Assembly: GCF_963664965.1 (NCBI RefSeq)
Contig: NZ_OY761823.1
Location: forward strand, 2,056,001-2,120,000
DNA length: 64,000 bases
Direction of reading: 5' to 3'
Source: an uncultured Pseudodesulfovibrio sp.
GTDB lineage: Bacteria; Desulfobacterota; Desulfovibrionia; Desulfovibrionales; Desulfovibrionaceae
The notes beneath the pieces were generated by a model that saw only the letters and a program-made list of their open reading frames with translations, was not told where the DNA came from and searched no databases. The translations under genes and the position numbers were made by a program. This document shows, one piece after another, positions 28,686-44,511 of the stretch; positions within the stretch are counted from its first letter, which is position 1, and the number at the start of each line of letters is the position of its first letter.

Positions 28686-29702
28686 ATGAAAACCGTTCGA
28701 GTTCAGGAAGCCGTGGGCATGGTTCTGTGCCATGACATGACAAGAATTGTTCCGGGTGAGTGCAAGGGACCTGCCTTCAAGAAAGGGCATGTGATTGTAG
28801 AAGAGGATATTCAGGCTCTGCTGGAGATCGGCAAGGAGCACGTCTATGTGCTCAACATGGAAAAAGGGCGCATTCATGAAAACGAAGCTGCCGAACGCAT
28901 TGCCAAGGCTGCCGCAGGTCCGGGCATTACGCTCTCAGCCGTCAGCGAAGGGCGTATAAATTTTGAAGCTTCCCCAGGGTTGCTGGACGTCAATGTAGAA
29001 GCCCTCAACCGTATCAATTCCATTGAAGAGGTCGTGCTCGCGACCATGCACACCGGCCAGCAGGTGACGGAATCCCGTCCTGTGGCCGGAACCCGCGTCG
29101 TCCCGCTCGTTATTGATGAAAAGAAGATTGAGCGGGTCGAGGAAATCTGTGCCGAGTATCCCTATGTCGTCGGCGTGAAGCCATTCGCGCACTACAACGT
29201 CGGCGTCGTGACGACCGGCAGCGAGGTCTTCCACGGCCGTATCAAGGACAAGTTCGGTCCTGTCATTCGAAAGAAATTTTCCCGGTTGGGTTCCACGGTC
29301 ATGGATCAGCGGTTGACTTCGGATGACCCTGTCATGACTCGTGACGCCATTCTGGCTTTCATTGCCGAAGGCGCGGAGATGGTTGTTGTCACCGGCGGCA
29401 TGTCCGTGGACCCGGACGACCAGACGCCCACGGCCATCCGTGCCACTGGGGCCGAGGTCATCACCTACGGTTCCCCGACGTTCCCCGGTGTCATGTTCAT
29501 GGTTGCCGTCCGGGACGGCGTTCCCATTCTGGGACTGCCCGGTTGCGTCATGTATTACCGTGCCAGCATTTTCGATCTCATCGTTCCCCGCATATTGGCC
29601 GGGGAGGAAATTACCCGTGAAGACATAGTCGCTTTGGGGCATGGCGGATTCTGTGCAAGTTGCGATGTTTGCCGTTACCCGACGTGTCCATTTGGAAAAT
29701 AG
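28686..29702 (+). CDS. Molybdopterin-binding (MoCF-domain) protein with cysteine-rich tail
   Basis: A 338-residue protein. Residues about 165-310 form a MoaB/MogA/MoeA-type molybdopterin-binding domain (VGVVTTGSEVFHG, GAEMVVVTGGMSVDPDDQTP, GVPILGLPGCVMY). The N-terminal 100 residues are a SAF-like or unassigned domain (VGMVLCHDMTRIVPGECKGPAF resembles the start of such MoeA-like proteins). It ends with a six-residue-spaced cysteine cluster, CASCDVCRYPTCPFGK. It lies directly upstream of Mop and probably handles molybdenum cofactor for it. The tail may bind a metal; that is inference. Confidence 0.85.
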   Translation: MKTVRVQEAVGMVLCHDMTRIVPGECKGPAFKKGHVIVEEDIQALLEIGKEHVYVLNMEKGRIHENEAAERIAKAAAGPGITLSAVSEGRINFEASPGLLDVNVEALNRINSIEEVVLATMHTGQQVTESRPVAGTRVVPLVIDEKKIERVEEICAEYPYVVGVKPFAHYNVGVVTTGSEVFHGRIKDKFGPVIRKKFSRLGSTVMDQRLTSDDPVMTRDAILAFIAEGAEMVVVTGGMSVDPDDQTPTAIRATGAEVITYGSPTFPGVMFMVAVRDGVPILGLPGCVMYYRASIFDLIVPRILAGEEITREDIVALGHGGFCASCDVCRYPTCPFGK

Positions 29703-29772
29703 CATTCAATGCCGTTCCCTTCATTCGAAGGAGCGGCTCTCGGACAGTGAACAATCTAAGGAGGAATACTGT

Positions 29773-32490
29773 ATGATCAAACTCACTCTCAAGGTGAACG
29801 GTGTCGCCAAGCAGGTCATATGCGAGCAGGATGAGTCCCTCGCAAACGTGCTGCGCGAAAACCTTGGTCTCACCAGCGTCAAGATCGGTTGCGCCACCGG
29901 CCAGTGCGGCAGCTGCTCTGTAATTGTGGACGGCAAATTGGTTCGTTCCTGCTCCATGAAAATGAAACGGGTCAAGGAAGGCGCTGTCATCCTGACGACC
30001 GAAGGAATCGGTACCCCGGACAACCTGCATCCCATTCAGGTCTCCTGGATCGCCAATGGTGGCGCACAGTGCGGTTTCTGCACTCCGGGCTTCATTGTTT
30101 CTTCGTACGCACTGCTTCAGTCCAACCCGTCTCCGACCCGCGAAGATATCCGCAACTGGTTCCAGAAATACCGCAACGCCTGCCGTTGTACCGGTTACAA
30201 GCAACTGGTTGATTCCGTCATGGATGCGGCCGCGGTCATGCGTGGCGAAATGCCGCTGGACGACCTGCTCTTCAAGATTCCGGAAGACGGACGCATCTGG
30301 GGCACCAAGTACCCCCGTCCCACGGGCGTCGCCAAGGTGACAGGTACGCTGGATTACGGTGCGGACCTCGGCATCAAGATGCCCACTGGCACCTTGAAAT
30401 GCGCTCTGGTGCAGGCCGAAGTGTCTCATGCCAAGATCCTCTCCATTGATACTTCCGAAGCCGAGAAGATGCCCGGTGTCGAGAAAATCGTCACCCACAA
30501 GGACGTCAAGGGCAAGAATCGCATCACTGGCCTGATCACCTTCCCCACCAACAAGGGTGACGGTTGGGATCGTCCCATTCTGTGCGATGAAAAGGTCTTC
30601 CAGTACGGTGACGCTCTCGCCATCGTCTGCGCCGACAGTGAAAAGAACGCCAAGGCCGCAGCCGCCAAGGTCAAGGTCGAACTGGAACGGCTTCCCGAGT
30701 ACATGAACGCCCATGCCGCCATGGCGGATGATGCGATCGAGATTCATCCCGGCACGCCGAACATCTATTACACCCAGAAGGTCGCCAAGGGCGAGGAAAC
30801 CGCTCCCATCTTCGACAAGGCCGATGTGGTCATGGAAGGCGATTACTTCACGACTCGTCAGCCGCACATGCCTATCGAGCCGGACGTGGGATTCGCCTAT
30901 CTGGACGACGACGGAAAACTGTGCATCCACTCCAAATCCATCGGCCTGCATCTGCATCTGTACATGATCGCTCCCGGTCTCGGCGTGGATCCCGAGAATC
31001 TGGTCATGGTCCAGAACCCCACCGGCGGTACCTTCGGTTACAAGTTCTCCCCGACCATGGAAGCATTGGTCGGCGCAGCATGCCTTGCCACCGGCAAGCC
31101 CGTGTTCCTGGCTTACGACTGGTATCAGCAGCAGACCTACACAGGTAAGCGCTCGCCCCAGTTCACCAGCGTTCGCATGGCTGCCGACAAGGAAGGCAAG
31201 CTCCTCGGCATGGAGACCGACTGGACGGTCGACCACGGTCCTTACTCCGAGTTCGGTGACTTGCTGACCCTGCGCGGCGCACAGTTCATCGGTGCCGGTT
31301 ACGATATCGCCAATATCCGTGGCGAAGGCCGGACCGTCTGCACCAACCACGCATGGGGCGCGGCTTTTCGTGGTTACGGCGGCCCCGAGGCCGAGTTCCC
31401 CTCCGAAGTGCTCATGGACGAACTGGCTGAAAAGCTCGGCATGGATCCTCTGGAACTTCGCTACAAGAACGTGTACCGCGAAGGTTCCACCACTCCCACC
31501 GGGTGTGATCCCGAAGTATACTCCCTGCCGGAGATGCTCGACACCCTTCGTCCCAAGTACGAGGAAGCCAAGAAGAGAACCGCTGCAAATTCCACCGACG
31601 AGATCAAGCGCGGTGTCGGCATCGCCCTCGGTGTGTACGGCTCCGGTCTCGACGGCCCGGATACCGCTGAAGCCGATGTTCGCCTGAACGAAGACGGCAC
31701 GGTGACCGTGCTGACCTGCTGGCATGACCACGGTCAGGGCGCGGACATGGGTGTTCTGGGTACTGCCCACGAGACCCTGCGTCCTCTGGGACTGGCTCCC
31801 GAGCAGATTCATCTGGTTCTCAACGACACGCGTTACTGCCCGAACGGCGGCCCTGCCGGTGGTTCCCGCTCTCAGGTCGTTGTCGGCAACGCCATCAAGG
31901 TCGGCTGTGAAATGCTGATGAAGGCCATGCGTAAGGATGACGACTCCTTCCGCACCTATCAGGAAATGGTCGATGAGAAGATCGATCTTCTTCATCACGG
32001 CAAGTGGACCGCTCCGGCAAACGATTGTGACGAAAACGGTCAGGGCAAACCCTTTGCCTGCTACATGTACGGTCTGTGCATGGCTGAAGTCGCTGTGGAA
32101 ACCGCGACAGGCAAGACCACAGTCGAGAAGATCACCTTTGTTGCCGATATCGGAAAGATCAACAACAAGTTGGTCGTCGACGGTCAGATTTACGGCGGTG
32201 TCGCTCAGGGCATCGGTCTGGCCTTGTCCGAGGATTACGAGGACATCAAGAAGCACTCCACCATGAAGGGTGCCGGGTTCCCGTACATCAAGCAGATTCC
32301 GGACGACATGGAGATCATCTACATCGAGTCTCCGCGTCCTGACGGTCCGCATGGGGCGTCCGGTGTCGGTGAAGTGCCGCTGTGCTCCCCGCACTCGGCT
32401 GTCATCAACGCGATCTACAACGCTTGCGGTGTCCGCATCCGCGAGTTGCCCGCTTTGCCTGAAAAGGTGCTGGCAGGCCTCAAGGGTTAA
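29773..32490 (+). CDS. mop: Molybdenum aldehyde oxidoreductase (xanthine oxidase family)
   Basis: A 905-residue protein close in length to the D. gigas aldehyde oxidoreductase (907). The plant-type [2Fe-2S] cluster cysteines are C40/C45/C48/C60, and the second cluster uses C100/C103/C137/C139, matching D. gigas numbering. A large Mo-binding part follows, with the catalytic glutamate at E867 in GASGVGEVPL. It oxidises aldehydes to acids on Mo-MCD and passes electrons to flavodoxin or ferredoxin; there is no FAD domain. The ATG at 29773 has AAGGAGG upstream; the longer frame overlaps the previous gene. A terminator follows. Confidence 0.95.
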   Translation: MIKLTLKVNGVAKQVICEQDESLANVLRENLGLTSVKIGCATGQCGSCSVIVDGKLVRSCSMKMKRVKEGAVILTTEGIGTPDNLHPIQVSWIANGGAQCGFCTPGFIVSSYALLQSNPSPTREDIRNWFQKYRNACRCTGYKQLVDSVMDAAAVMRGEMPLDDLLFKIPEDGRIWGTKYPRPTGVAKVTGTLDYGADLGIKMPTGTLKCALVQAEVSHAKILSIDTSEAEKMPGVEKIVTHKDVKGKNRITGLITFPTNKGDGWDRPILCDEKVFQYGDALAIVCADSEKNAKAAAAKVKVELERLPEYMNAHAAMADDAIEIHPGTPNIYYTQKVAKGEETAPIFDKADVVMEGDYFTTRQPHMPIEPDVGFAYLDDDGKLCIHSKSIGLHLHLYMIAPGLGVDPENLVMVQNPTGGTFGYKFSPTMEALVGAACLATGKPVFLAYDWYQQQTYTGKRSPQFTSVRMAADKEGKLLGMETDWTVDHGPYSEFGDLLTLRGAQFIGAGYDIANIRGEGRTVCTNHAWGAAFRGYGGPEAEFPSEVLMDELAEKLGMDPLELRYKNVYREGSTTPTGCDPEVYSLPEMLDTLRPKYEEAKKRTAANSTDEIKRGVGIALGVYGSGLDGPDTAEADVRLNEDGTVTVLTCWHDHGQGADMGVLGTAHETLRPLGLAPEQIHLVLNDTRYCPNGGPAGGSRSQVVVGNAIKVGCEMLMKAMRKDDDSFRTYQEMVDEKIDLLHHGKWTAPANDCDENGQGKPFACYMYGLCMAEVAVETATGKTTVEKITFVADIGKINNKLVVDGQIYGGVAQGIGLALSEDYEDIKKHSTMKGAGFPYIKQIPDDMEIIYIESPRPDGPHGASGVGEVPLCSPHSAVINAIYNACGVRIRELPALPEKVLAGLKG

Positions 32491-32506
32491 TACATAATAT
32501 GAAATA

Positions 32507-32547
32507 GGGAGCGGTCCGTGTGCGGCATGGACCGCTCCCTTGTTTTT
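32507..32547 (+). terminator. Terminator/attenuator after mop
   Basis: An 11-bp perfect stem (32507-32517 with 32529-32539), an 11-base loop and a TTGTTTTT tract. The next gene starts at 32564, only 17 bases on, so downstream genes are probably reached by read-through at lower level than mop. Confidence 0.85.
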
Positions 32548-32563
32548 ACAGGAACAGGCGAGC

Positions 32564-34813
32564 ATGGAACAGGCAGAATTGAGACAATGGGAACACAAGT
32601 GTGTTCAGGAAGAGGTGCCGCAGTGTGTTGCCGCCTGTCCGTTGCATGTGGATGCGCGGACATTCTGTTCGCTCTTGGCACAGCGGCGGTGGGACAAGGC
32701 ATGGCAGGTGCTTGCCAAGACACTCCCGCTGCCCGGGGTGCTTTCCCGACTGTGTGACGGGCCGTGCAAGCATGCCTGCGTGCGTAAGGATGCGGGCGGC
32801 AGTATCGAGATGGACCGGCTGGAACGATTCTGTGCTGAAACGGCCAAGCCTGTTGCACCGCCCCGGCCTTTGCCCAAGCGCGGGAAATCCGTTGCCGTGG
32901 TAGGTGATGGCCTGACAGCCTTGTGCGCGGCATGGGAGATGGCGCGCAGGGGATTTGATGTTACCCTGCATTGTTTCGTGCCGGGGGGACTGCTGTCGGC
33001 CTTGCCCGAAGGGGTGCTGGAGCGGGAGCTTGAAAATCTCGTCAAACTCGGTGTGACCATTGAAGACGGGGTGGATTTGACCTCCGAAGCCATTGACGTG
33101 CTGATGGATGAAAATGATGCCGTGTTCGTGGATGGTGAATTCTGGCCTGTGCATCTCTCCGGGGTGGGTGAGCCTGACGAATTGACACTCGGTACACAGC
33201 GTGTCGGTCTGTTTGCCGGACCCAAGGGGGAGACGTCGGCAGTCCTGTTGGCTGCTGCCGGTCGCAGGGCAGCCAATTCCGTGGAACGTTTCACGCAGGG
33301 CGTGTCCATGGTCACCGGACGGGAGCTGGAAGGACCGTATGCAACGCGCCTGTTCACCAGTCTGGCAAAGGTCGAATCAGTGCCGCCTGTCGTGGCTGAC
33401 GGCATATATACCGAGGAAACCGGGCGGGACGAGGCAAGGCGGTGTCTCCAATGTGAATGCATGGAATGCGTGAAGCATTGTGAATACCTGAAGCATTACA
33501 AATTCTATCCCAAGGTCTACGCACGGCAGATCTACAATAACGAGTCCATTGTCATGGGCACGCGGCAGGCCAACAGCATGATCAATTCCTGCATGTTGTG
33601 CGGTTTGTGCGAAACCCTGTGTCCCGAAGATTTTTCCATGGCCGACGTCTGTCTTGAGGCGCGGCGTACCATGGTCGAGAGTGACACCATGCCGCCGTCT
33701 GCTCATGAATTCGCCCTGCGGGACATGGCCTTTGCCAATAGCGAAAAATGTGTGTTGGCCCGCCATGCTCCGGGGCTGGACCAGAGCGAATACCTGTTTT
33801 TCCCCGGCTGCCAGTTGACCGCATCCAACCCGGACAGCGTGCAGGCTGCATACGCCGACCTGCGTAAACAGCTCGGGAGTGTGGGACTGCTGCTTCATTG
33901 CTGTGGCGCTCCGGCTGAATGGTCCGGCCGTCAGGGGCTGATGAATGAAACCGTGGCCGTTCTCCGAAAGGAATGGGAAGCCCTTGGCAGTCCGAAGATC
34001 ATTGCGGCCTGTCCGACCTGTCTCAAGACGTTGCATGCATATCTGCCCGATGCGGAAGTTGTTTCGCACTGGTCCATTTTGCGTGCGCTCGGCTTGCCGA
34101 CTGATACCGCAGGGGATTGTGGCTCCATGGCGATCAATGATCCGTGCGCGGCCCGTCATAATGCCATGCTGCGCGAGGATGTCCGCGCCATTCTGGAGCA
34201 GGTCGGCGTCACCGTCGAAGAACCGGAAATGACCGGCGAGACCGCGCAGTGCTGCGGGTATGGCGGATTGCTGTCCGAGGCCAACCCGGAACTCGGCAGG
34301 GCGGTTGCCGAGCGGCGTGCTGCGGAAATGGAAGAAGACTGGGTCACTTATTGCGTAATGTGCCGGGACATGATCGCCAAAACCGGCAAGCGGGCTGTGC
34401 ATATCTATGATCTGCTGTACCTGCAGGACGTGGATGCTGGTGCGCGCCCATCACCGGGCTATTCCCTTCGCCGCGAAAACCGTGCGCGCCTTCGGGAGAG
34501 GTTGCTTGCCGAAATCTGGCAGGAAAACGGTGCGCTGGCTGTTGAACCGTACGAGTCCGTTGCTGTGGATTTCACGGCTGAAGCCTCGGTTCTGATGGAA
34601 GAAAGGCGTATCCTGAAAAGCGATGTCCAGAAGGTCTTTCTGAATATGCAAAAGAGCGGGCGGCGATTTATCAGCCGTGAAAATGGACATTTCCTGACTT
34701 CGTTCAGACCTGTTGTCGTGACCTACTGGGTCGAATTTTCCGAGCAGGGGGAAGGGTATCTTGTCCATAATGTGTGGTCACACCGAATGAAGGTGCGGGA
34801 GGTTCGGTCATGA
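32564..34813 (+). CDS. Multi-cluster iron-sulfur oxidoreductase with GltD-like and HdrB-like parts
   Basis: A 749-residue soluble protein. The N-terminus (about 1-90) is a GltD-type Fe-S domain (CVQEEVPQCVAACPLHVDA, LCDGPCKHAC). Residues about 110-280 contain a Rossmann start VAVVGDGLTALCAAWEMARR; a second glycine-rich motif is not obvious, so the flavin/NAD(P) part may be reduced. Two [4Fe-4S] motifs follow (CLQCECMECVKHC and CMLCGLCETLCPED), then two CCG domains as in HdrB/GlpC (CCGAPAEW, ACPTCLKTL, CCGYGGLL, CVMCRDM). NCBI naming, as I recall, is pyridine nucleotide-disulfide oxidoreductase/dicluster-binding protein. It likely links Mop or its partners to a thiol or ferredoxin pool. Confidence 0.8.
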   Translation: MEQAELRQWEHKCVQEEVPQCVAACPLHVDARTFCSLLAQRRWDKAWQVLAKTLPLPGVLSRLCDGPCKHACVRKDAGGSIEMDRLERFCAETAKPVAPPRPLPKRGKSVAVVGDGLTALCAAWEMARRGFDVTLHCFVPGGLLSALPEGVLERELENLVKLGVTIEDGVDLTSEAIDVLMDENDAVFVDGEFWPVHLSGVGEPDELTLGTQRVGLFAGPKGETSAVLLAAAGRRAANSVERFTQGVSMVTGRELEGPYATRLFTSLAKVESVPPVVADGIYTEETGRDEARRCLQCECMECVKHCEYLKHYKFYPKVYARQIYNNESIVMGTRQANSMINSCMLCGLCETLCPEDFSMADVCLEARRTMVESDTMPPSAHEFALRDMAFANSEKCVLARHAPGLDQSEYLFFPGCQLTASNPDSVQAAYADLRKQLGSVGLLLHCCGAPAEWSGRQGLMNETVAVLRKEWEALGSPKIIAACPTCLKTLHAYLPDAEVVSHWSILRALGLPTDTAGDCGSMAINDPCAARHNAMLREDVRAILEQVGVTVEEPEMTGETAQCCGYGGLLSEANPELGRAVAERRAAEMEEDWVTYCVMCRDMIAKTGKRAVHIYDLLYLQDVDAGARPSPGYSLRRENRARLRERLLAEIWQENGALAVEPYESVAVDFTAEASVLMEERRILKSDVQKVFLNMQKSGRRFISRENGHFLTSFRPVVVTYWVEFSEQGEGYLVHNVWSHRMKVREVRS

Positions 34814-35025
34814 GTGTCATCAAGGTGCCGGAAGCGGACGCCGCGGGATGGAAGTGTGCGACCTGTGACGAGGAACTGGTTTCCCGGCCTGTGGAACTTG
34901 AGTATCTCGATTCCCTGTTCAATGTGGAGCTGCCGACCTGTCAGAAGTGCGGGATGGTGCTCATTCCCGAGAACCTTGCGCTCGGCAAGATGAATCAGGT
35001 GGAGCATCTGCTGGAGGACAAGTAG
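34810..35025 (+). CDS. Small zinc-ribbon/rubredoxin-like protein (DVU_1557-like)
   Basis: A 71-residue protein with two CxxC pairs, C16/C19 (WKCATCDEEL) and C44/C47 (PTCQKCGMVLIP). This spacing suits a single Zn or Fe site of zinc-ribbon or rubredoxin type. It overlaps the preceding stop by ATGA. I recall the DvH homologue being named DVU_1557 family redox protein. A small electron carrier for the neighbouring oxidoreductase is a reasonable guess; a structural zinc site is the alternative. Confidence 0.75.
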   Translation: MSVIKVPEADAAGWKCATCDEELVSRPVELEYLDSLFNVELPTCQKCGMVLIPENLALGKMNQVEHLLEDK

Positions 35026-35029
35026 CGTC

Positions 35030-35692
35030 ATGCGGTCGGCTGTTCCATTGTGGGAGAAACCCGTGCTGCGTCGGGCAGCAGGCGAGACTCTGCGTCCCGG
35101 CGGATTCCGTCTGACGGATCGGGCCGCCGAAGTCATGAGGCTGGTGCCGGGATGCCGGGTGCTTGATGTCGGCTCCGGTCTGGGAGCGACGGTCGGGCGT
35201 CTGCGGTCACGGTTCGGCGTCGAGGCGTATGGCGTTGAGTCGTCCGGGCAACAGATTCTGCGTGCCGGAAGCCAGCGTGGATTGGTGCAGGCCCAAGGCG
35301 ATTGCCTGCCGTTTCAGGCAGAATCGTTCAGCGCGATATTTTGCGAGTGCGTGTTTTCACTATTTTCCGATCCACGGGCCGGACTTCGGGAGTTTTGGCG
35401 CGTGCTCGAACCCGGCGGATATTTGGCTCTCTCCGATTTGTGTTCTCAGGATGCATGGACGTCGGAAATCTCTTCCTGTGCGGAGAGGGCCATACCTTTT
35501 TCAGAGATAAGGGAAATGGTCGAATCGCAGGGATTCGCCGTGCGCTTGGTGGAAGATCATACCGCGTATCTCAAGGAACTGGCTGCAAAGTTGGTGTTTG
35601 CCGGAGATGGGGAAGGGCAGGCATGCGGATGCGGGCGTCGTCTTGGGTATTACCTGATGATCGCCCGAAAAAAAGGAAGTCAGGATGTTTGA
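35030..35692 (+). CDS. Class I SAM-dependent methyltransferase (DVU_1556-like)
   Basis: A 220-residue Rossmann methyltransferase: motif I VLDVGSGLGATVGRL near 44-58, acidic AYGVESS after beta 2, and EPGGYLALSDL later. The C-terminal region carries cysteines (SSCAERA, and ACGCGRR near 201-207) not usual in small-molecule methyltransferases. The overlap with the next gene is eight bases. Substrate unknown; a metabolite or cofactor modified together with the radical SAM enzyme is plausible. Confidence 0.8.
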   Translation: MRSAVPLWEKPVLRRAAGETLRPGGFRLTDRAAEVMRLVPGCRVLDVGSGLGATVGRLRSRFGVEAYGVESSGQQILRAGSQRGLVQAQGDCLPFQAESFSAIFCECVFSLFSDPRAGLREFWRVLEPGGYLALSDLCSQDAWTSEISSCAERAIPFSEIREMVESQGFAVRLVEDHTAYLKELAAKLVFAGDGEGQACGCGRRLGYYLMIARKKGSQDV

Positions 35693-36140
35693 TGACACTG
35701 GACTGAAGATGATGGAACTGGCCGGAAAAGGGTACTGTTGCAGCCAGATCATGGTGCAGCTCGCTCTTGAGGAGATGGACCGTGAAAACCCCGATTTGGT
35801 AAGAGCTGTTGCCGGACTCTGCAACGGGCTGGGCGATTGTTCGGGACCGTGCGGCGTATACACCGGGGCGACCCTGCTTCTCGGATTGCATGCGGGCAAG
35901 GGGACGGACATGGAAGAAGTGGATGACTGCCTGTCGCTCATGCTGGAGGAATTGCGGGGATGGTTTGTCGCGGCTACGACGCAGTACGGCGGCACGTCCT
36001 GCGGAGACATTCTTGAGGGCAATTGCGGGCAGCCGAATACGGCCCGTTGCGGCGGTCTGGTTTCCGAAGCTTATGCAAAGGTTCGGGAGATTCTGGCCGG
36101 TAACGGATTTGATCCGGCAGAAGGGCGCGAATTGTCATGA
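35685..36140 (+). CDS. C-GCAxxG-C-C family protein (DVU_1555-like)
   Basis: A 151-residue cysteine-rich protein with C18/C19, C46, C52, C56, C82, C106, C114 and C122. The block DCSGPCGVYTGA (51-62) corresponds to the GCGG-GxCGALTGA signature of C_GCAxxG_C_C proteins, which often occur as redox or selenium-containing proteins near molybdenum or selenium enzymes. All positions here are cysteine, with no in-frame TGA. It is translationally coupled to the radical SAM gene. Confidence 0.8.
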   Translation: MFDDTGLKMMELAGKGYCCSQIMVQLALEEMDRENPDLVRAVAGLCNGLGDCSGPCGVYTGATLLLGLHAGKGTDMEEVDDCLSLMLEELRGWFVAATTQYGGTSCGDILEGNCGQPNTARCGGLVSEAYAKVREILAGNGFDPAEGRELS

Positions 36141-37483
36141 ATCGAGTTCCCCGCAGTGTCTGTCCCGTTTGTTTGAAGCCCATTCCCGCCAGTCATGAGA
36201 TTGAGGATGGCAACGCCTATCTGGTCAAGGAATGCCCGGAACATGGTGAGTTCAGAACCATTGTCTGGCGTGGTGAACCCGATTTTCAGGATTGGAAGCG
36301 TACCAAGATTCCTTCCTTGCCAAAGCAGCCGTTTACGCGTTCGGAAAAGGGTTGTCCCTATGATTGCGGACTGTGTGACGCGCATCGGCAGCATACCTGC
36401 ACGGCGGTCATGGAGGTAACGTGGCGTTGCGACCTTGGTTGCCCGGTTTGTTTTGCTTCGTCCGGGAAAAAAGCACCCGCCGATCCCGCATTGGATGAGC
36501 TTGCATATCTTTTCGATAGGGTGAAACTGGCGTCCGGCTACTGCAATGTCCAGTTGTCCGGTGGCGAGCCGACCATTCGCAATGATTTGCAGGACATTAT
36601 CCGTCTTGCCAAGAGCAAGGGATTTCCTTTTGTTCAACTGAACACCAACGGTCTGCGTATCGGTCGGGAAGCCGGGTATGCCGCTTTATTGGCCGAGGCC
36701 GGACTGGATTCCGTTTTCTTGCAGTTCGACGGCATGGAAGACGATATTTACACGCGGTTGCGGGGCAGGCCTTTGCTTGAAACGAAACTTGCTGCCATCC
36801 GTGCGCTTGTTGATGCCGGTATCGGCATTGTGCTTGTGCCGACCGTGGTGCCGGGTGTCAACGAGCACAATCTTGGTGCGATTTTGCGTCTGGCCTCGGA
36901 GAATTCACCCGGCGTGCGCGGGGTTCATTTCCAGCCCGTGAGTTATTTCGGGCGGTATCCCGAAGCCCCGGCGGATGATCAGCGCATTACCCTGCCGGAT
37001 GTCATGCGCTTGCTTGAAGAGCAGACGGAAGGGGCGGTCCGTACCCGGGATTTCCTCCCGCCAGGATGTGAACATTCGCATTGTTCCTTTCACGCCAACT
37101 ATATGGTCCTTGAGGACGGGGGGCTGAAAAAGCTTTCGGCTAACGGCAAATGCGGTTGCACGCCGCGTCCGGCTTCGGAAGGTGCGGACAAGGCCAAGGC
37201 GTTTGTCAAACGTCAGTGGGCTGCGCCTGACAATGTCTTGCCCATGGCGGATAAGCAGGATGATCTCGACGCGTTCATATCCCGTGCGGCAACGCATACG
37301 CTCGCCGTGTCGGCCATGGCGTTTCAGGATGCATGGACGCTTGATTTCGAACGGCTCAAGGGATGCTGCATCCATACTGTTTCACCTGATGGGCGGCTTA
37401 TTCCGTTCTGTGCCTACAATCTGACGTCCATGGACGGCGAAACCCTGTATCGAGGCAAATGTGATGGGTCTGCCTCCGCTTGA
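36137..37483 (+). CDS. Radical SAM protein with two CX3CX2C motifs (TrsS-like)
   Basis: A 448-residue enzyme. The N-terminus has C9/C12 and KECPEHGEF (zinc-ribbon-like). CPYDCGLC (C73/C77/C80) and CDLGCPVC (C98/C102/C105) are both CX3CX2C; the second is the canonical SAM-cluster motif. SGGEPTIRND and NTNGLRIG belong to the SAM barrel. The C-terminal half has GCEHSHCSFH, GKCGCTP and GCCIHTV for auxiliary clusters. The layout resembles the MJ0619/Tes-like branch. From memory, NCBI calls the DvH neighbour radical SAM (seleno)protein TrsS; this copy is all cysteine. Substrate unknown. Confidence 0.82.
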   Translation: MNRVPRSVCPVCLKPIPASHEIEDGNAYLVKECPEHGEFRTIVWRGEPDFQDWKRTKIPSLPKQPFTRSEKGCPYDCGLCDAHRQHTCTAVMEVTWRCDLGCPVCFASSGKKAPADPALDELAYLFDRVKLASGYCNVQLSGGEPTIRNDLQDIIRLAKSKGFPFVQLNTNGLRIGREAGYAALLAEAGLDSVFLQFDGMEDDIYTRLRGRPLLETKLAAIRALVDAGIGIVLVPTVVPGVNEHNLGAILRLASENSPGVRGVHFQPVSYFGRYPEAPADDQRITLPDVMRLLEEQTEGAVRTRDFLPPGCEHSHCSFHANYMVLEDGGLKKLSANGKCGCTPRPASEGADKAKAFVKRQWAAPDNVLPMADKQDDLDAFISRAATHTLAVSAMAFQDAWTLDFERLKGCCIHTVSPDGRLIPFCAYNLTSMDGETLYRGKCDGSASA

Positions 37484-38771
37484 TGCATGGCTGATCCGCC
37501 GCATGGGGTGGACTGATGACGTGCCTCCTTCACCGGATCAGGTACGCGGCTGGCAGCTTGAACGGTTGCGGGATGTCGTGCGCCATGCCCGGGAAAACAG
37601 TCCGTTTTATGCCCGGTCTCTGGCTGATGTTGATGTTGCCGCACTGCTGACTGCCGAGGATTTTGCTCGTCTGCCCATGATGACCCCGGATGATGTGCGA
37701 AACGGGCCGGAGCAGTTGCTCTGTGTGTCTCAGGACGAGATCGCACGGGTTGTGACGTTGCAGAGTTCCGGGACTACGGGAGCGCCTAAGCGGATTTTTC
37801 ATACGCAGGAAGACCTGGAAGCCACGGTGGAGTATTTCGGCTGGGGTATGCGTAACCTTGTCGGTCCGGGGCAAACGGCATTCGTGCTCATGCCCGGAGA
37901 ACGTCCCGGAGGAGTGGGACGGTTGCTTGTGAAGGCCTTGAATCGAACCGGCGCGCGGGCCGTGACGCACGGTGTCATGGAAGATGTCGGTGTTGCGTTC
38001 GATCATCTGTTGGAGGAAGGGGCTGACTGCATTGTCGGTCCGGCGGCGCATGTGAACATGCTGGCCCGTGAATGGGAGTGGCGGGGATTGCCGCAGGGGC
38101 AAATTCAGTCCGTGCTTCTCTGCTGGGATGCGGCCCCGGACGCCGTGGTTCGCAATGTGGAACAGGCGCTTGGGTGTCAGGTGTTTCGCCATTGGGGCAT
38201 GATTGAAACCGGACTCGGCGGAGCCGTCGAGTGTTCACCCGGTTCGGGGATGCATCTTCGCGAAACCGATGTGTATCTGGAAATCATTGATCCGCAGACC
38301 GGCACTCCTGTCCCGGACGGTTTGTTCGGGGAGATGGTGGTGACCACGCCGCTGAGGCGGGGCATGCCGCTCATCCGGTATCGCACCGGGGACATGGGGC
38401 GGATTCTGCCGGACAGGTGCGCGTGCAAAAGTCCGTTGCGTCGTCTGGACCCCGCTGTTCGGCGCGTGGATGACTTCGTAAAAGTCGGAAATGACGGTTT
38501 CGGACTGACAAAATTGAATGAATTTCTTTACTCACTGCCGGGGTTATGGGATTTTGCGGCGTGTCTCCATAATGAGACATTACACGTTGTCGCCTGTGGC
38601 CGCGAAAGCGGGCTGGCTGACAGTGTGAGGTCGGTTTTACGTTCTATGCCCGCCATTGGTCATGGGGTTGAAAACGGTACTTTGCATATTGAAATTGAAA
38701 CGAAAAACGACGGGACTCCGGCTGTGCCCGGACTTGGAAAGCGCCGTTTGCAGAGAGATATGGAGTGTTGA
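37464..38771 (+). CDS. PaaK-like AMP-dependent adenylating enzyme (DVU_1553-like)
   Basis: A protein of about 435 residues of the phenylacetate-CoA ligase branch. The N-terminus RLRDVVRHARENSPFYA is typical of PaaK; the P-loop is SSGTTGAPKR near 106-115, followed by HWGMIETG and RYRTGDMGRI. It would activate a carboxylate as acyl-adenylate and perhaps make the CoA ester. Start is ATG 37464, or GTG 37461; GAGG lies eight bases before the ATG. It overlaps the radical SAM gene by 20 bases. Because Mop yields carboxylic acids, this enzyme could consume its product; it could also act on a maturation intermediate. Confidence 0.82.
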   Translation: MGLPPLDAWLIRRMGWTDDVPPSPDQVRGWQLERLRDVVRHARENSPFYARSLADVDVAALLTAEDFARLPMMTPDDVRNGPEQLLCVSQDEIARVVTLQSSGTTGAPKRIFHTQEDLEATVEYFGWGMRNLVGPGQTAFVLMPGERPGGVGRLLVKALNRTGARAVTHGVMEDVGVAFDHLLEEGADCIVGPAAHVNMLAREWEWRGLPQGQIQSVLLCWDAAPDAVVRNVEQALGCQVFRHWGMIETGLGGAVECSPGSGMHLRETDVYLEIIDPQTGTPVPDGLFGEMVVTTPLRRGMPLIRYRTGDMGRILPDRCACKSPLRRLDPAVRRVDDFVKVGNDGFGLTKLNEFLYSLPGLWDFAACLHNETLHVVACGRESGLADSVRSVLRSMPAIGHGVENGTLHIEIETKNDGTPAVPGLGKRRLQRDMEC

Positions 38772-38774
38772 TTC

Positions 38775-39791
38775 ATGAAGGCTTTTGTACGTTCCGTATG
38801 CGGACTTATTGAGCAGGATGAAAATTTTGTCATGGCGACCGTGGTCGAAAGTTCCGGCTCCACGCCGCGTTCTTCCGGTGCGAAAATGGCGGTGCGCCGG
38901 GACGGCAGCATCCTCGGTACCGTGGGCGGCGGTCTTGTCGAGGCAATGGCCTGCAAGGATGGCCGCAAGATGATTGATTCCGCCGACGGGCAGGCCCAGC
39001 TTTCTTTTGTGGACATGACACAGGAGCTTGCTGCCAATTCGGATATGATCTGTGGTGGCGGGCTGTCTGTCCTGCTTGAGGTCGTGCATGCGGACGGTCC
39101 CTGTGCATCGGCGTATCGGCAACTGGACGAGTTGCTGCGGAGCGGGCGTGAATCTGTTCTGCTGACGTCCTTTGACGGGACTGATTCTTCGTGTGCGGTG
39201 AAACACGAGGTTGTCACGGACGGCGCGTGTTCTTCGATGTGCCAGCAGGCCATGGATGCCGGTTCTGTCTGTTTCGAGAAAAATGAATCCGACATGACGC
39301 TGGCCGAGCCGTTCATCCCCCCGGCACCGCTGTATATTTTTGGAGCCGGACATGTCTCTCTGTTTACCGCAAAGGTCGGGGCCATGGTCGGTTTCCGTAC
39401 TGTCGTACTTGATGACCGGGACGATTTTGCCAATGAAACCCGTTTCCCTGATGCCGATGAAGTGATTGTCCTGCCTTCATTTGACGGGTGTTGCGACGAT
39501 CTGGAGATCGGTGAGGACGCATATATCGTCATTGTCACTCGCGGCCATCTGCATGACCGCAACGTGCTTGCCGAGGCCCTTCGCACCAAGGCGAAATACA
39601 TCGGCATGATCGGCAGCAAGAAGAAGCGTGACAAGATTTATGATTCGCTGCTTTCGGACGGATTCACGCAGGCGGATATTGACCGCTGTCATTGCCCGAT
39701 CGGCCTGTCCATCGGCGCGCAGACGCCGGAAGAGATTGGTGTCTGCATCGGTGGCGAACTCATTCAGGTCAGGTCGGGATACGGGCAGTGA
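38775..39791 (+). CDS. XdhC/CoxI family molybdenum-enzyme maturation protein
   Basis: A 338-residue protein with the N-terminal CoxI-like region (VVESSGSTPRSSGAKMAVRR, GTVGGGLVEAMA) and the C-terminal Rossmann XdhC domain (LYIFGAGHVSLFTAKVGA, VTRGHLHDRNVL, IGMIGSKKKRD). XdhC proteins bind and sulfurate Mo cofactor before insertion into xanthine-oxidase-family enzymes, so Mop is the obvious client. GTG of the next gene overlaps its stop. Confidence 0.9.
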   Translation: MKAFVRSVCGLIEQDENFVMATVVESSGSTPRSSGAKMAVRRDGSILGTVGGGLVEAMACKDGRKMIDSADGQAQLSFVDMTQELAANSDMICGGGLSVLLEVVHADGPCASAYRQLDELLRSGRESVLLTSFDGTDSSCAVKHEVVTDGACSSMCQQAMDAGSVCFEKNESDMTLAEPFIPPAPLYIFGAGHVSLFTAKVGAMVGFRTVVLDDRDDFANETRFPDADEVIVLPSFDGCCDDLEIGEDAYIVIVTRGHLHDRNVLAEALRTKAKYIGMIGSKKKRDKIYDSLLSDGFTQADIDRCHCPIGLSIGAQTPEEIGVCIGGELIQVRSGYGQ

Positions 39792-40909
39792 ACGACGTCG
39801 CGGCGATAATTCCTGCTGCGGGGTTGTCCTCGCGCATGGGACGGTTCAAGCCTCTGCTGCCGCTCGGGGGCGGGACCGTGCTGTCGTCGTGTATTGATGT
39901 TTTCAAGGCCAATGGTATCGAAAGGATTCTGGTGGTCACCGGAAAGCGGGCTGACGAAGTGTCGGAGGCGGCAGAGCGGTCCGGCGCTGTCACTGTCTAT
40001 AATGAATCGTATGAACAGGGGATGTTTTCCTCGGTATTGAAAGGGCTTGGCGCGCTTGATGGTGTGTCGGCCTTTTTCATGTTGCCTGTTGATATACCGT
40101 TGTTGCGGCGCGAAACCGTGGCGCGGTTGCTTCAAGAGTTCAAGCGGTGCAGCCCAACCATCCTGTACCCCTGTTTTCTGGGAGAACGTGGGCATCCACC
40201 GATCATCAGCCGGACGCTTCTGCCGGACATCTTCGCGCATGATGGTGCGGGGGGCTTGCGGACCGTGCTGGACAGACATGAGCCCGGTGCGCGTGATCTG
40301 AATGTGGCTGATTTCGGGGTGGGGCATGACCTTGACTGCCCTGCGGATTACGAATTGGCGTTGTCTCGCGCCGGAACGGGGTATCCCTGTGAGGAGGAGT
40401 GTCGCCAGTTGTGGGAGATGTATTCGCTGCCGTTCGATATAATTCGGCATTGTCAGGCGGTTTCGTGCGTGGCCGAGGCTTTGGCCGACAATCTGAATAC
40501 TCGGGGGGGGAAATCGATGCTTGATCCGGCGTTGGTTCGGGGGGCGGCATTGACCCATGACATAGGCAAAGGATCAAGGCGTCATGAAGCCGAGGGTGCC
40601 GAGTATCTGCATACGCATGGTTTTCATGTCGCCGCTGATATCGTTCTGGAACACTCCGACCTTGTGCTTGAATCGGATGCGCCCATCACGGAAAAGGAAG
40701 TGGTTTTCCTTGCCGACAAGCTGGTGCAGGGAGAAAGACCGTCTCAGCTGGAATCCCGGTACATGGCGAAAATGGATTTGTATGGTCATGAACCGGATGC
40801 GAAGCAGGCCATACTGGGAAGACTTGCACGGGCACAGGTTGTCCTTGCCCGTTTTGACCGGGAGATGACGGTGCCTGCCGAAAAGCTTGCACGGGAGGTG
40901 CTTGAATGA
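39788..40909 (+). CDS. NTP transferase (MocA-like) fused to an HD domain (DVU_1551-like)
   Basis: A 373-residue protein starting at GTG 39788, overlapping the XdhC stop. Residues 1-195 are a MobA/MocA nucleotidyltransferase (IIPAAGLSSRMGRFKPLL), as in the enzyme that makes molybdopterin cytosine dinucleotide, the cofactor of D. gigas Mop. Residues about 205-373 are an HD phosphohydrolase (AALTHDIGKGSRRHEAEGAE, LEHSD). The two activities in one chain suggest making and hydrolysing a nucleotide, or editing of the dinucleotide cofactor. Substrate of the HD part is unknown. Confidence 0.82.
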   Translation: MNDVAAIIPAAGLSSRMGRFKPLLPLGGGTVLSSCIDVFKANGIERILVVTGKRADEVSEAAERSGAVTVYNESYEQGMFSSVLKGLGALDGVSAFFMLPVDIPLLRRETVARLLQEFKRCSPTILYPCFLGERGHPPIISRTLLPDIFAHDGAGGLRTVLDRHEPGARDLNVADFGVGHDLDCPADYELALSRAGTGYPCEEECRQLWEMYSLPFDIIRHCQAVSCVAEALADNLNTRGGKSMLDPALVRGAALTHDIGKGSRRHEAEGAEYLHTHGFHVAADIVLEHSDLVLESDAPITEKEVVFLADKLVQGERPSQLESRYMAKMDLYGHEPDAKQAILGRLARAQVVLARFDREMTVPAEKLAREVLE

Positions 40910-41508
40910 TCGTGCTCATGCGTCATGCGCGGACAGAAGGCGGGGAAGGGCGATGTATCGGACGTACGCCGATACCGCTTTCCGATGAGGGAAGGCGACA
41001 GTCCGTCTGCATTGCCGAGGTGTTGCACAATGCCGGTTTCGCCCGGTTGTGTTGCAGTCCTTCCCTGCGGGCATTGGATACGATTTCGCCGCTTGCCGAG
41101 CGCATAGATTCAGGTGTGGATATCCTTCCGGCACTGGATGAAATCGACATGGGTGAATGGGACGGCCTGCTGTTTGACGATGTTCGCAGCAGATATGCCG
41201 AGCAGTATGGCGAGCGGGGAAAGTGTTTTGCGGATTTTCGTCCGCCGAACGGGGAAAATTTCAATGACGTTGCCGATCGTGCTGTCTCGGTATTGCAGGA
41301 TTTGGCCGCTGGCCCCCAGTCCGTACTCGCCGTGACGCATGCCGGGGTGCTTCGTGCCGTGCAATGCCGCCTGACCGGGCATCCCATGGATGATCTGTTT
41401 CATTTCAAACCGAAATACGGTTGCTGTACTCTTCTTGAATCCAAGAATGGCGAACTGCGGTTTGTCAAAGGCAATGTCCTGCCTCAGGTTCTATTCCATT
41501 TTCTGTAA
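40906..41508 (+). CDS. Histidine phosphatase superfamily protein
   Basis: A 200-residue phosphoglycerate-mutase-like phosphatase. The catalytic motif is RHARTEGG (RHG usually; here RHA) with H7 as phosphoacceptor, ALDEIDMGEWDG and VTHAGVLRAV follow. It resembles alpha-ribazole phosphatase (CobC) and general PhoE-type enzymes. It is the last gene before a terminator and is coupled by ATGA to the NTP transferase-HD gene, so it may hydrolyse a phosphate left by that enzyme; a cobalamin role is the alternative. Confidence 0.85.
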   Translation: MIVLMRHARTEGGEGRCIGRTPIPLSDEGRRQSVCIAEVLHNAGFARLCCSPSLRALDTISPLAERIDSGVDILPALDEIDMGEWDGLLFDDVRSRYAEQYGERGKCFADFRPPNGENFNDVADRAVSVLQDLAAGPQSVLAVTHAGVLRAVQCRLTGHPMDDLFHFKPKYGCCTLLESKNGELRFVKGNVLPQVLFHFL

Positions 41509-41567: not shown

Positions 41568-42293
41568 CTAGCTGCTCATCGGGCAGAAGCGTTCCCAGCC
41601 CATGAGGCTGGCGGCTCCGGATATGGTGGTACCGTAAAACAGCACGGGTTTGTCGGTCAGGAACATGTCGATGGTGCTGTTGGCAAGGGTCGTGCCTGTG
41701 ACGAGCAGCAGGTCGCACCAGCCGATGGCTTCTTGCGTGGCGTCGCCGCCTTCCACGAGCACGCCGCGTTTGATCTGTCCCACGTTGTCCGGGTCGAGGT
41801 CGATGAGCCGGACCTCGGTTTCCTTGTTGAGTGCTTCGGCGAGCGCGGGCTGAAAACCGATGATGGTGATCTTGCAGTTGCCGTGCTTTTTGCGGATGCA
41901 GTCGAAAATCTGTGTCGAGCATTCCTTCGGGCCTGAGTCCTTGCAGTGAATGGTGCCTTCGGCCTGTCCCAGCGAGCGGGAAACCGCGTTGACCGTTGAG
42001 ACGAGTATGGCGCGGTTGAAGTTGTTGTCCAGCGGAAGCGCCGCCACTTCGGTCAGTGTGCCGGAGTAATTGCCGTAATGATCCGTGAAGGCCTGTCCTC
42101 GTGCTTCACGGAAGCGCGCTTCCATGAGTTTTTCCTTGCCCTGCTGGATGGGGAAGTCCTGCTCCTCGGGTTCTCCGATGGCTTCTTTCACACTCAGCGG
42201 ACCGGCGGAAACGGTGATTCTTTCGTTCAGTATATCCTCTGTTTCCCAGAGTGCCACAGCCTTGTCACGTACAGTTTCCAGTATTGTCTTCAT
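41568..42293 (-). CDS. DUF364/DUF4213 protein at the end of the mod operon
   Basis: A 241-residue protein with an N-terminal enolase-like DUF4213 portion (ILNERITVSAGPLS) and a C-terminal Rossmann-like DUF364 part (ITIIGFQPALAEAL, CDLLLVTGTTLANSTIDMFL, PVLFYGTTISGAASLMGWERFCP). Family members have been suggested to chelate or handle heavy metals. Here it is the fourth gene of a molybdate transport operon, nine bases after modB, which supports a role with molybdate, tungstate or the cofactor. Biochemistry is unknown. Confidence 0.8.
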   Translation of the reverse strand: MKTILETVRDKAVALWETEDILNERITVSAGPLSVKEAIGEPEEQDFPIQQGKEKLMEARFREARGQAFTDHYGNYSGTLTEVAALPLDNNFNRAILVSTVNAVSRSLGQAEGTIHCKDSGPKECSTQIFDCIRKKHGNCKITIIGFQPALAEALNKETEVRLIDLDPDNVGQIKRGVLVEGGDATQEAIGWCDLLLVTGTTLANSTIDMFLTDKPVLFYGTTISGAASLMGWERFCPMSS

Positions 42294-42302
42294 GATGTTC
42301 TC

Positions 42303-42971
42303 CTATACGGCTGAAAGCCGTTTCAATGCAATGAAAATGGTGAGTGAAAAGAGTCCGATAATGGCCGACAGGACCAGTGCCCGTTCGAATTCGCCGCTGA
42401 ATACGGCGTTGTATATTTCAAGGGACAGGGTGTTGGTCTTGCCGATGATGTTGCCGCCCAGCATGAGGGTGATGCCGACCTCGCCGAGTGAACGGCCAAG
42501 GGCGAGGAACCAGCCGGACGCCACATTGCGCCGTACATTGGGCAGCAGGACGAGCCAGAATGTCTGCCAGTCATTTTTCCCGAGTACCTTCGAAGCCTCG
42601 GCAAGTTTGCGGACATCTCCGCGAAGGGCAGCTTCCACCGGCTTGACCATGAGCGGCAGTCCGGCCACAAACGCCGCCAGAACCACGCCGGGGAAGCTGA
42701 ACACGATATCGACCGGAAGTACCTGCCCGATCAGTCCCGCACGCCCGAGCAGCATAAGGAGGATGAAGCCGGTGGCGATGGGCGGGAATACAAGCGGCAG
42801 TGTGACCATGAAGTCCACTGCGGACCGCATGACGCTTTTTCTGCCGGTCAGGTAATAACCGAGCAGGATGCCGCAGACCAGATGCAGCGCACCGGAAACC
42901 GCCAGAACCTTGAGGGTCAGTTTCAGTGGTGCCGTTGTTTCCGGCTGTACCAGGATATCGAAAAAGTTCAT
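42303..42971 (-). CDS. modB: Molybdate ABC transporter permease
   Basis: A 222-residue permease with about five membrane segments and the conserved loop REVGITLMLGGN region preceded by ALGRSLGEVG, the ATPase docking site of ModB/CysT-type permeases. LPLVFPPIATGFILL is typical. It begins five bases after modA. Confidence 0.93.
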   Translation of the reverse strand: MNFFDILVQPETTAPLKLTLKVLAVSGALHLVCGILLGYYLTGRKSVMRSAVDFMVTLPLVFPPIATGFILLMLLGRAGLIGQVLPVDIVFSFPGVVLAAFVAGLPLMVKPVEAALRGDVRKLAEASKVLGKNDWQTFWLVLLPNVRRNVASGWFLALGRSLGEVGITLMLGGNIIGKTNTLSLEIYNAVFSGEFERALVLSAIIGLFSLTIFIALKRLSAV

Positions 42972-42976
42972 TCCGG

Positions 42977-43705: not shown

Positions 43706-43716
43706 GATGCGTTCCT

Positions 43717-44406: not shown

Positions 44407-44511
44407 ATCTTTCCGTTGCTGTTTCTGTTGCTGCAATGAAGCGCCGTGTTGGTGCGGCCTTGTGTCGTTTGCTAAATTCTCCTATGTTTTGTGCGGTTAT
44501 TCAGCAACCCT

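Follow-up and report, generated by a model that had tools for sequence, protein, structure and literature searches.

The genes around the molybdopterin-dependent aldehyde oxidoreductase (Mop) of an uncultured Pseudodesulfovibrio sp. form two separable modules rather than one indivisible pathway, since in other genomes Mop is found without the radical SAM enzyme TrsS and the TrsS gene set is found without Mop. The molybdenum module consists of Mop, an XdhC-type carrier, an NTP transferase-HD fusion and MoCF, the last probably serving molybdenum insertion into Mop. The TrsS module consists of a methyltransferase, TrsS, a ligase, two small metal proteins (DVU_1557 and C-GCAxxG-C-C) and the HdrB-type CCG half of a dicluster protein. 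Our leading, still tentative reading is that the dicluster protein is the flavin partner of Mop, and that the TrsS module makes or processes a small molecule that is served by the HdrB half.

The window analyzed is a 64,000-nucleotide stretch of contig NZ_OY761823.1. At 28686-41508 it holds, as the original prediction said, an eleven-gene system around Mop; the coordinates were checked, and all eleven frames are open, uninterrupted and on the + strand. The first is MoCF (28686-29702; PF00994, 85 bits), which resembles the molybdopterin-binding proteins MoeA/MoaB and has a C-terminus rich in Cys. It is followed by Mop (29773-32490), which matches NF045668 over its full length (residues 3-904) at 1695.6 bits, the cut-off being 1100. 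A terminator-like hairpin of 16 pairs, 10 of them G-C, with a T tail (32506-32540, + strand) lies between Mop and the dicluster gene (32564-34813; NF045663, 1013.7 bits). Then come a small CxxC/CxxC protein of the DVU_1557 family (34810-35025; NF045645, 102 bits), a SAM methyltransferase of the DVU_1556 family (35030-35692; NF045667, 208 bits), a C-GCAxxG-C-C protein of the DVU_1555 family (35685-36140; NF045669, over cut-off), TrsS (36137-37483; NF045646, 688 bits) and a PaaK-like adenylate-forming ligase of the DVU_1553 family (37461-38771; NF045666, 456.5 bits). The start codon of the ligase is either GTG at 37461 or ATG at 37464. The operon ends with the XdhC-type Moco carrier (38775-39791; NF045664, 432.7 bits), the MocA-like NTP transferase-HD fusion of the DVU_1551 family (39788-40909; NF045665, 424.2 bits; PF12804 and PF01966), for which a GTG start at 39788 was inferred in a frame scanned from 39782, and an alpha-ribazole-phosphatase-like histidine phosphatase (40906-41508; PF00300, 157 bits). 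The XdhC-type carrier is alone in the genome in matching XdhC_CoxI. The phosphatase scores 131 bits against the CobC-like model TIGR03162, under its cut-off of 162.9. Past the dicluster gene, six of the eight junctions overlap and two are gaps of 4 and 3 nt, where seven overlapping or touching junctions had been counted before. Promoter-pattern matches numbered 7, with 5.9 expected. The convergent neighbor of the operon is a molybdate ABC transporter-like modB, modA, modC set (42303-44436, - strand), in which modA is above the cut-off of TIGR01256 and the matches to TIGR02141 (169.6 bits) and TIGR02142 (218.9 bits) are under theirs; it resembles a molybdate supply system.

These gene families are already catalogued in NCBIfam. 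Eight of the nine genes after Mop pass curated models, the exception being the histidine phosphatase; five of those models carry the names DVU_1551, 1553, 1555, 1556 and 1557, and another is TrsS. With DVU_1559 listed as an aldehyde oxidoreductase, this bears out the parallel to DVU_1551-1559 drawn in the original prediction. Every product with a model in the DVU_155x/TrsS set passes its curated cut-off (nine models); MoCF and the histidine phosphatase have no model in the set. Nothing was found that sets the window locus apart from this set, whose models name families and not a chemistry. TrsS is reportedly to be credited to Haft and Tolstoy in 2025. No functional paper on the cassette was among the literature matches listed, which do not take in the Haft and Tolstoy study.

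Among 199 genomes of the order, both TrsS and Mop are over cut-off in 122 and neither in 69, with TrsS only in 3 and Mop only in 5 (Fisher p = 2.4e-43), so the pairing is not due to chance. All seven core genes are present in 40 of 80 named loci, and in 35 of these 40 they keep the same order and strand: Mop-dicluster-DVU1557-MTase-CGC-TrsS-ligase, which is also the order in the window. The conserved order spans eight phyla, as read from record names. Of the 52 named loci with Mop, 23 also have MoCF within the stretch that was fetched. Another 28 named loci show no Mop in that stretch, and 16 of their genomes were looked up for Mop elsewhere; eight have it over cut-off, one falls just short at 1099.7, two have pieces, and five have no canonical Mop. 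When distances between Mop proteins are compared with those of seven partners, the dicluster protein tracks Mop best (r 0.78, n 53) and TrsS only moderately (r 0.50). The poorest fit is that of the ligase (r 0.16, n 42), a value that 71 of 999 permutations reached.

The modules come apart in both directions. TrsS genes without Mop form one clade of 12 rows from ten loci (SH-aLRT 100 in a quick tree), which indicates that the TrsS module can leave the molybdenum module; the forks placing this clade within the Mop carriers have support of only 86 to 89. In that tree, 70 of the 81 rows labeled as Mop-bearing were verified and 11 were not. The Mop status of 6 rows was entered as unknown, L195 was dropped as a duplicate (it is the same contig as L135), and truncated TrsS, such as that of L136, was excluded. 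At the Mop-less loci the molybdenum genes are missing, and the HdrB-type half, methyltransferase, TrsS and, mostly, the ligase remain together. HGD-D proteins are encoded near 4 of 11 Mop-less TrsS loci (L122, L129, L131 and L205) and, in the same scan, near none of the remaining 120 loci. Three of the four loci also have BadF ATPases. In the other direction, one 100% complete genome (G003) has Mop without TrsS and without a full dicluster protein, and its XdhC scores 319.7 bits, under the cut-off of 350. Extra Mop copies without the cassette also exist. One locus, L156, reads ADH-Mop-dicluster-DVU1557-CGC-ligase, without TrsS and methyltransferase, and TrsS is elsewhere in its genome (G065); so at this locus the dicluster protein, DVU1557, CGC and ligase can work for Mop with no TrsS beside them. 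Of the two situations that the original prediction had set against itself, Mop without the other genes occurs in part, in that G003 lacks TrsS, and the nine genes without a molybdenum hydroxylase occur in part, as the TrsS set without canonical Mop in the one clade.

The dicluster protein is composed of a GltD/NfnA-like FAD half, a dicluster [4Fe-4S] part, an HdrB/EtfD-type CCG half and a C-terminal domain. Its AF2 model (pLDDT 93.9) matches Nfn, EtfD, LutA and HdrB structures. The FAD subunits of Nfn/Stn and the CCG proteins EtfD, LutA and HdrB each resemble one of its halves in sequence or fold. In the alignment to an NfnA-type chain, the query passes from 195 to 204 where the chain goes from 289 to 457; therefore, the NAD(P)H-binding domain that Nfn/Stn-type FAD subunits have is absent. 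The FAD half would so be unable to bind NAD(P)H, the protein is not filed as an NAD(P)H-linked GltD/Nfn flavoprotein, and an NAD(P)H link, considered as a candidate, was rejected on account of the missing domain. Of 59 Mop loci whose dicluster gene is complete, 58 have the FAD and CCG halves fused; in the 59th, L221, the gene is split into two frames. Among Mop-less loci with a dicluster core, including L130 with a weak core match of 154 bits, the FAD half is missing in 7 of 8. The eighth, L215, from a 1.7 Mb genome, keeps a complete dicluster protein without Mop. In one dicluster comparison, the Mop-bearing group comprised all rows outside the Mop-less list, Tes-like rows included. Hairpins that have 12 or more pairs and a T tail are present at 21 of 54 Mop-dicluster junctions; they appeared in none of 20 shuffles of the junction set and in 0 of 54 cases inside the next gene. 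The hairpin of the window is probably a partial terminator, one that reduces the expression of what lies past Mop, and the presence of such hairpins at many junctions argues against a 1:1 Mop-dicluster complex.

The solved relatives of the window Mop are 1sij/1vlb and 1dgj, and the D. gigas enzyme, whose structure we take to show plain MCD, belongs to the same curated family. In genome G093, Mop is identical to the crystallized D. gigas enzyme over all 103 of 103 residues compared, and ten of the eleven genes are clustered there, with cassette genes adjoining Mop; NTP transferase-HD was the one not found. In the available text of a review (PMC10223205), D. gigas Mop is the xanthine-oxidase-type reference whose structure was the model for others; its Mo center is of xanthine-oxidase type with oxo replacing sulfido, and a modified pterin is not mentioned there. 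The same text describes the enzyme as lacking FAD, lists aromatic aldehydes such as salicylaldehyde and benzaldehyde among its substrates, and gives flavodoxin, which accepts its electrons in vitro, as the putative electron partner, while omitting the adjoining dicluster protein (PMC10223205).

TrsS is a homologue of the tetraether lipid synthase Tes and, judging from its sequence, is likely Tes-like in chemistry. It matches the Tes structure 7tol at 302 bits and the curated Tes model NF045702 at 357.3 bits; the cut-off of 450 is not reached, so it is not filed as Tes. Shared with Tes (GDGT-MAS, MJ0619, 7tol) are the rubredoxin-like Cys3His site, the Cys3 and His of [Fe4S4]N, the radical SAM motif and the labile Met that ligates [Fe4S4]C. 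TrsS also has the Gln and Arg found in the Tes loop that closes on SAM. The metal ligands C9/C12/C33/H36, C73/C77/C80 with H83, C98/C102/C105 and M394 are conserved in 12 of 12 aligned sequences, H83 being taken as the histidine ligand and the Cys ligands of [Fe4S4]C in TrsS being putative assignments. M394 aligns to residue 459 of the 7tol chain (offset 20), which is the labile Met439 of Tes. TrsS differs from Tes in being shorter ahead of the C-terminal cluster domain, where the stretch between two significant matches is 72 residues in TrsS and 115 in Tes (query 309-382, chain 331-447), in usually being in an operon with redox proteins, a methyltransferase and a ligase, and in its occurrence in bacteria that are not known to make tetraethers. 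The absence of a defined chemistry, originally claimed for the system, thus holds for the product but not for the radical SAM enzyme. The Pfam name of the TrsS zinc ribbon is HMPTM, which comes from a pterin-methylase activity formerly proposed for the Tes family. A selenoprotein form of TrsS was not seen; no in-frame stop occurs among the over-cut-off matches listed for the sampled order and phylum.

Of the remaining TrsS-module proteins, the ligase has the phenylacetate-CoA ligases 4r1l and 2y27 as its closest solved structures, and also has a weak LuxE match (27.4 bits). The predicted model of the C-GCAxxG-C-C protein gave nothing significant in Foldseek, and a PDB sequence search gave nothing useful; a second structural comparison (VIA) matched it to 1h21. 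From this model, its fold may be like that of the split-Soret cytochrome c with an iron center. In DVU_1557, four Cys and a C-terminal LEdK are conserved in 78 sequences. It was considered as a RiPP precursor and rejected, being a conserved metal-site protein that lacks a variable core.

We suggest, then, that Mop would oxidize an aldehyde to an acid, with its Mo cofactor made and delivered by MoCF, the MocA-like NTP transferase-HD and XdhC. Cofactor delivery by the last two was part of the original prediction and is supported, as is a specialized redox chain. In that chain the dicluster protein would be the missing flavin partner of Mop, electrons presumably passing from Mo through two [2Fe-2S] clusters to the FAD of the GltD-like half, and from there through [4Fe-4S] clusters to the HdrB/EtfD-type CCG half. 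On the side of the TrsS module, the ligase may adenylate a carboxylic acid; TrsS may take a hydrogen from an sp3 carbon, which would be held on a sulfur of the C-terminal cluster as in Tes; and the methyltransferase may cap the modified molecule. The CCG half, to judge by its retention in the Mop-less loci, may reduce or oxidize the product. The product would then most likely be the terminal acceptor or carrier for electrons from Mop. Counted against this two-module reading were L215, L156, G003, the extra Mop copies, the in vitro activity of flavodoxin, and the r values of 0.16 for the ligase and 0.50 for TrsS.

The well-known PQQ and mycofactocin systems pair the gene of a dedicated dehydrogenase with genes for redox partners and a radical SAM enzyme. 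The TrsS module may likewise supply anaerobes with an undescribed small-molecule redox carrier, a counterpart of PQQ or mycofactocin that does not depend on oxygen; we consider this proposal unlikely as it stands. A carboxylic acid would be adenylated, functionalized Tes-style at an unactivated sp3 carbon with formation of a C-C or C-S bond, and then methylated; the resulting carrier would receive the electrons of Mop via the FAD/HdrB protein, and one clade would have re-used it with other partners after loss of Mop, in some cases beside ATP-driven HGD-D/BadF reductases. The resemblance is in how the systems would work only. No precursor peptide is among the annotated products of the operon, of which DVU_1557 is the sole small one.

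The alternative that we consider possible, though doubtful, is linear catabolism, in which an alcohol is converted to an aldehyde by an alcohol dehydrogenase, to an acid by Mop and to an acyl-CoA by the ligase, and TrsS and the methyltransferase act on a particular, possibly aromatic, substrate. At 4 cassette loci, though no more, an alcohol dehydrogenase lies less than 400 bases from one of the genes: L156, L189 (Zn type), L160 and L187 (Fe type). Eight extra Mop loci, L150-L157, were fetched out of a larger number in existence; an Fe alcohol dehydrogenase is 0.1-2.2 kb from Mop in five of them, L150-L154, and none is seen in L155 and L157. AcoR-type sigma-54 regulators, counted at 18 of the 124 loci, an indolepyruvate:ferredoxin oxidoreductase alpha gene near the L183 cassette, and the aromatic aldehydes accepted by D. 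gigas Mop (PMC10223205) fit this route. So do the HGD-D and BadF genes near Mop-less TrsS, in four and three loci, respectively, though HGD-D was counted at the loci rather than across those genomes. The ligase does resemble phenylacetate-CoA ligase, but it remains with TrsS where Mop is missing, and its distances fail to follow those of Mop. That same ligase, by its LuxE match, and TrsS, by its homology to Tes with metal ligands retained, could instead belong to a lipid module, with TrsS coupling or altering fatty chains and Mop and the ligase recycling fatty aldehydes and acids. We regard this as rather unlikely. TrsS falls below the Tes cut-off, the stretch that is shortened in it presumably helps to line the lipid pocket, and no lipid enzyme was conspicuous by eye among nine neighbor groups present in at least 4 loci.

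Radical SAM enzymes require a low-potential electron donor, and the dicluster protein could be a dedicated reductase that carries electrons from aldehyde oxidation to TrsS for its activation. Its HdrB-type half does stay with TrsS, the methyltransferase and, mostly, the ligase in the absence of Mop. We think this quite improbable; dedicated donors of such a size are unusual, one-electron delivery needs no CCG half, and the L156 operon retains the dicluster gene without TrsS. Finally, the strong co-occurrence and adjacency, and the name HMPTM, could suggest that Mop carries a modified molybdenum cofactor made by the extra genes, as the original prediction had offered as one possibility. This was rejected as the main reading and is very improbable. 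The cassette accompanies a Mop of the crystallized D. gigas type, for which the available review text mentions no modified pterin (PMC10223205), G003 has Mop without TrsS, and a whole clade has the TrsS set without Mop.

The dicluster protein offers a concrete, testable candidate for the electron partner of Mop, which stays putative in the available text of the review (PMC10223205). The operon also ties a Tes-type radical enzyme to the well-studied Mop in tractable bacteria. With Mop accessible and a homologue of TrsS solved, direct tests become possible on an orphan family of radical enzymes that, by record names, occurs in eight or more phyla.

Eleven genes run along the + strand at 28686-41508, encoding in order a MoCF protein, the molybdenum aldehyde oxidoreductase Mop, a dicluster oxidoreductase, a 71-residue CxxC/CxxC protein, a SAM methyltransferase, a C-GCAxxG-C-C protein (CGC), the radical SAM enzyme TrsS, a PaaK-like ligase, XdhC, an NTP transferase-HD protein and a histidine phosphatase. 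The eight junctions 3' of the dicluster gene comprise six overlaps and two gaps (4 and 3 nt), and the eleven-gene system of the original prediction stands. Mop and eight products after it pass curated NCBIfam models. Since five of these models bear DVU_155x names, the parallel that had been drawn with D. vulgaris is right; PMC10920352 lists DVU_1559 as aldehyde oxidoreductase. This locus is a typical example of a gene system that is widespread and already catalogued. At the end of the MoCF protein (29630-29702) lies a cysteine cluster, CASCDVCRYPTC, which to our knowledge is unusual among MoeA/MoaB relatives. The convergent downstream neighbours, in the stretches 41568-44436 and 44556-45617, are molybdate-transporter-like (modABC-like) genes on the minus strand and then a TOBE/integrase-like regulator gene; the latter's phage-integrase-like, two-TOBE product is a putative TunR-type tungstate regulator.

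The 199 genomes examined from the order divide into 122 with both TrsS and Mop over the cut-off, 3 with only TrsS, 5 with only Mop and 69 with neither. The exceptions are drafts in part. Mop lies in pieces across two contigs in G019, G077 and G081 are assemblies of many contigs, G192 has a TrsS piece at 421 bits, below the cut-off, and the cassette sits at a contig end in G146 (98% complete). Completeness is put at 100% for both G003 and G187. In G079, 77% complete and sharing a genus group with G003, an in-frame TAG interrupts the surviving dicluster gene (G079:C2:904-3192), perhaps the sign of a decaying cassette. A phylum-wide draw of 297 genomes, including 11 from the window's own family, has TrsS over the cut-off in 33 and Mop in 26. 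Among the best 80 named loci from a scan of genome contigs, Mop is within the fetched stretch in 52 and all seven core genes (Mop-dicluster-DVU1557-methyltransferase-CGC-TrsS-ligase) in 40; order and strand are identical in 35 of these 40, with eight phyla represented by record name.

The system falls into two separable modules. Eleven TrsS loci come from genomes in which Mop over the cut-off was not found (L122, L128-L133, L136, L205, L215 and L234), and no XdhC, NTP transferase-HD or histidine phosphatase was found in their stretches. Twelve TrsS rows from 10 of these loci form a single clade (SH-aLRT 100). With Tes-like proteins at the root, this clade is nested, by forks with support of 86 to 89, among TrsS sequences from genomes that carry Mop. 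Conversely, G003 has Mop, with an XdhC relative 17 kb off (319.7 bits, below the cut-off of 350), and neither TrsS nor a full dicluster protein was found there. Eight extra Mop loci were fetched, and five of them (L150-L154) are cassette-free copies with an iron alcohol dehydrogenase 0.1-2.2 kb away. For the label "solitary", the Mop phylogeny requires four or more changes on well-supported branches. Because of the Mop-less TrsS loci, G003 and the cassette-free Mop loci, keeping Mop needs no TrsS, and TrsS needs no Mop. The suggestion that the system makes a modified cofactor for Mop is unlikely.

The best solved relative of TrsS is the tetraether lipid synthase Tes (7tol, 302 bits), which joins sp3 carbons by way of a carbon attached to cluster sulfur. 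TrsS keeps the rubredoxin-like iron ligands (C9, C12, C33, H36), the N-terminal cluster ligands (C73, C77, C80 and a histidine, taken as H83) and the radical SAM cluster cysteines (C98/C102/C105). Its M394 aligns with Met439, the labile ligand among those reported for the Tes metal sites (PMC9433317). C316, C410 and C425 are likely remaining ligands. Every residue named here is invariant across alignment A1 (12 of 12 sequences). The most economical guess, by analogy, is that TrsS would run the same first half-reaction as Tes. We do not file TrsS as Tes, because it is shorter ahead of the C-terminal cluster and reaches 357 bits against the Tes family model, where the cut-off is 450. Tes-like proteins with no cassette gene nearby are also encoded elsewhere in the order and phylum (L138-L145); mostly longer, they match the TrsS model at about 210-377 bits and are possible bacterial membrane-spanning-lipid enzymes. 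The boldest reading, to which we give a low probability, is that the TrsS module makes a new anaerobic redox carrier.

Several loci show other arrangements. DUF5714 shares one open frame with TrsS at L174:9980-12157 and adjoins TrsS or the ligase of the TrsS locus in L146, L147, L122 and L234; the last two have tandem TrsS copies. In Sporomusa (L175:8504-9950 and L183:8517-9948), what by eye is an aminotransferase-V/cysteine-desulfurase-like gene lies with a small gene between the NTP transferase and TrsS. The Mop-less cassettes L132 and L133 adjoin a RACo-like gene and what by eye are TRAP-transporter-like genes, and L133 additionally has molybdopterin-oxidoreductase-like and corrinoid-protein-like genes (by eye).

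Other neighbours offer hints at the chemistry. An alcohol dehydrogenase is close to cassettes L156, L189, L160 and L187; L156:2930-11275 runs ADH-Mop-dicluster-DVU1557-CGC-ligase, with TrsS and the methyltransferase both absent from the fetched stretch. AcoR-type regulators occur in 18 of 124 loci and near four of the five cassette-free Mop copies. HGD-D proteins stand beside Mop-less TrsS in L122, L129, L131 and L205, the latter three of which also have BadF ATPases; neither was found in any other of the 124 loci. These neighbours suggest, and do not settle, aldehyde or acid chemistry, possibly aromatic.

Within the operon, Mop is followed by a strong terminator-like hairpin (32506-32540; 16 pairs and a T tail). 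Of 54 Mop-dicluster junctions, 21 carry a T-tailed hairpin of 12 or more pairs and 26 carry one of 8 or more; in 20 shuffles of the set, the former number 0 each time and the latter average 1.5 (maximum 3). None of the former was found within equal stretches inside the next gene. Junction hairpins occur in about half of related loci, in sequence different from that of the window, and Mop output probably exceeds that of the genes behind it.

In the N-terminal half of the dicluster protein, the alignment to NfnA and its flavoprotein relatives covers their FAD segments and leaves out the NAD(P)H-binding domain, moving from 195 to 204 in the query while the chain advances from 289 to 457. An EtfD/LutA/HdrB-type part makes up the second half (AF2 model pLDDT 93.9). 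Of the 59 Mop loci whose dicluster gene is complete, 58 have the FAD half, and the remaining one, L221, has that gene split in two reading frames; of the 8 Mop-less loci holding the dicluster core, 7 lack the FAD half (the exception is L215). Among seven partners, the dicluster protein has the highest correlation with Mop pairwise distances (r 0.78, n 53), followed by XdhC (0.61), TrsS (0.50), methyltransferase (0.44), NTP transferase (0.43), CGC (0.40) and ligase (0.16). D. gigas Mop is described, in PMC10223205, as without flavin; its putative partner is a flavodoxin, through which a chain was reconstituted in vitro. Because of the FAD-half distribution, the distance correlation and the flavin-free D. 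gigas enzyme, we propose that the dicluster protein would be the physiological electron acceptor of Mop, which supports, in more definite form, the specialised redox chain first envisaged for this system.
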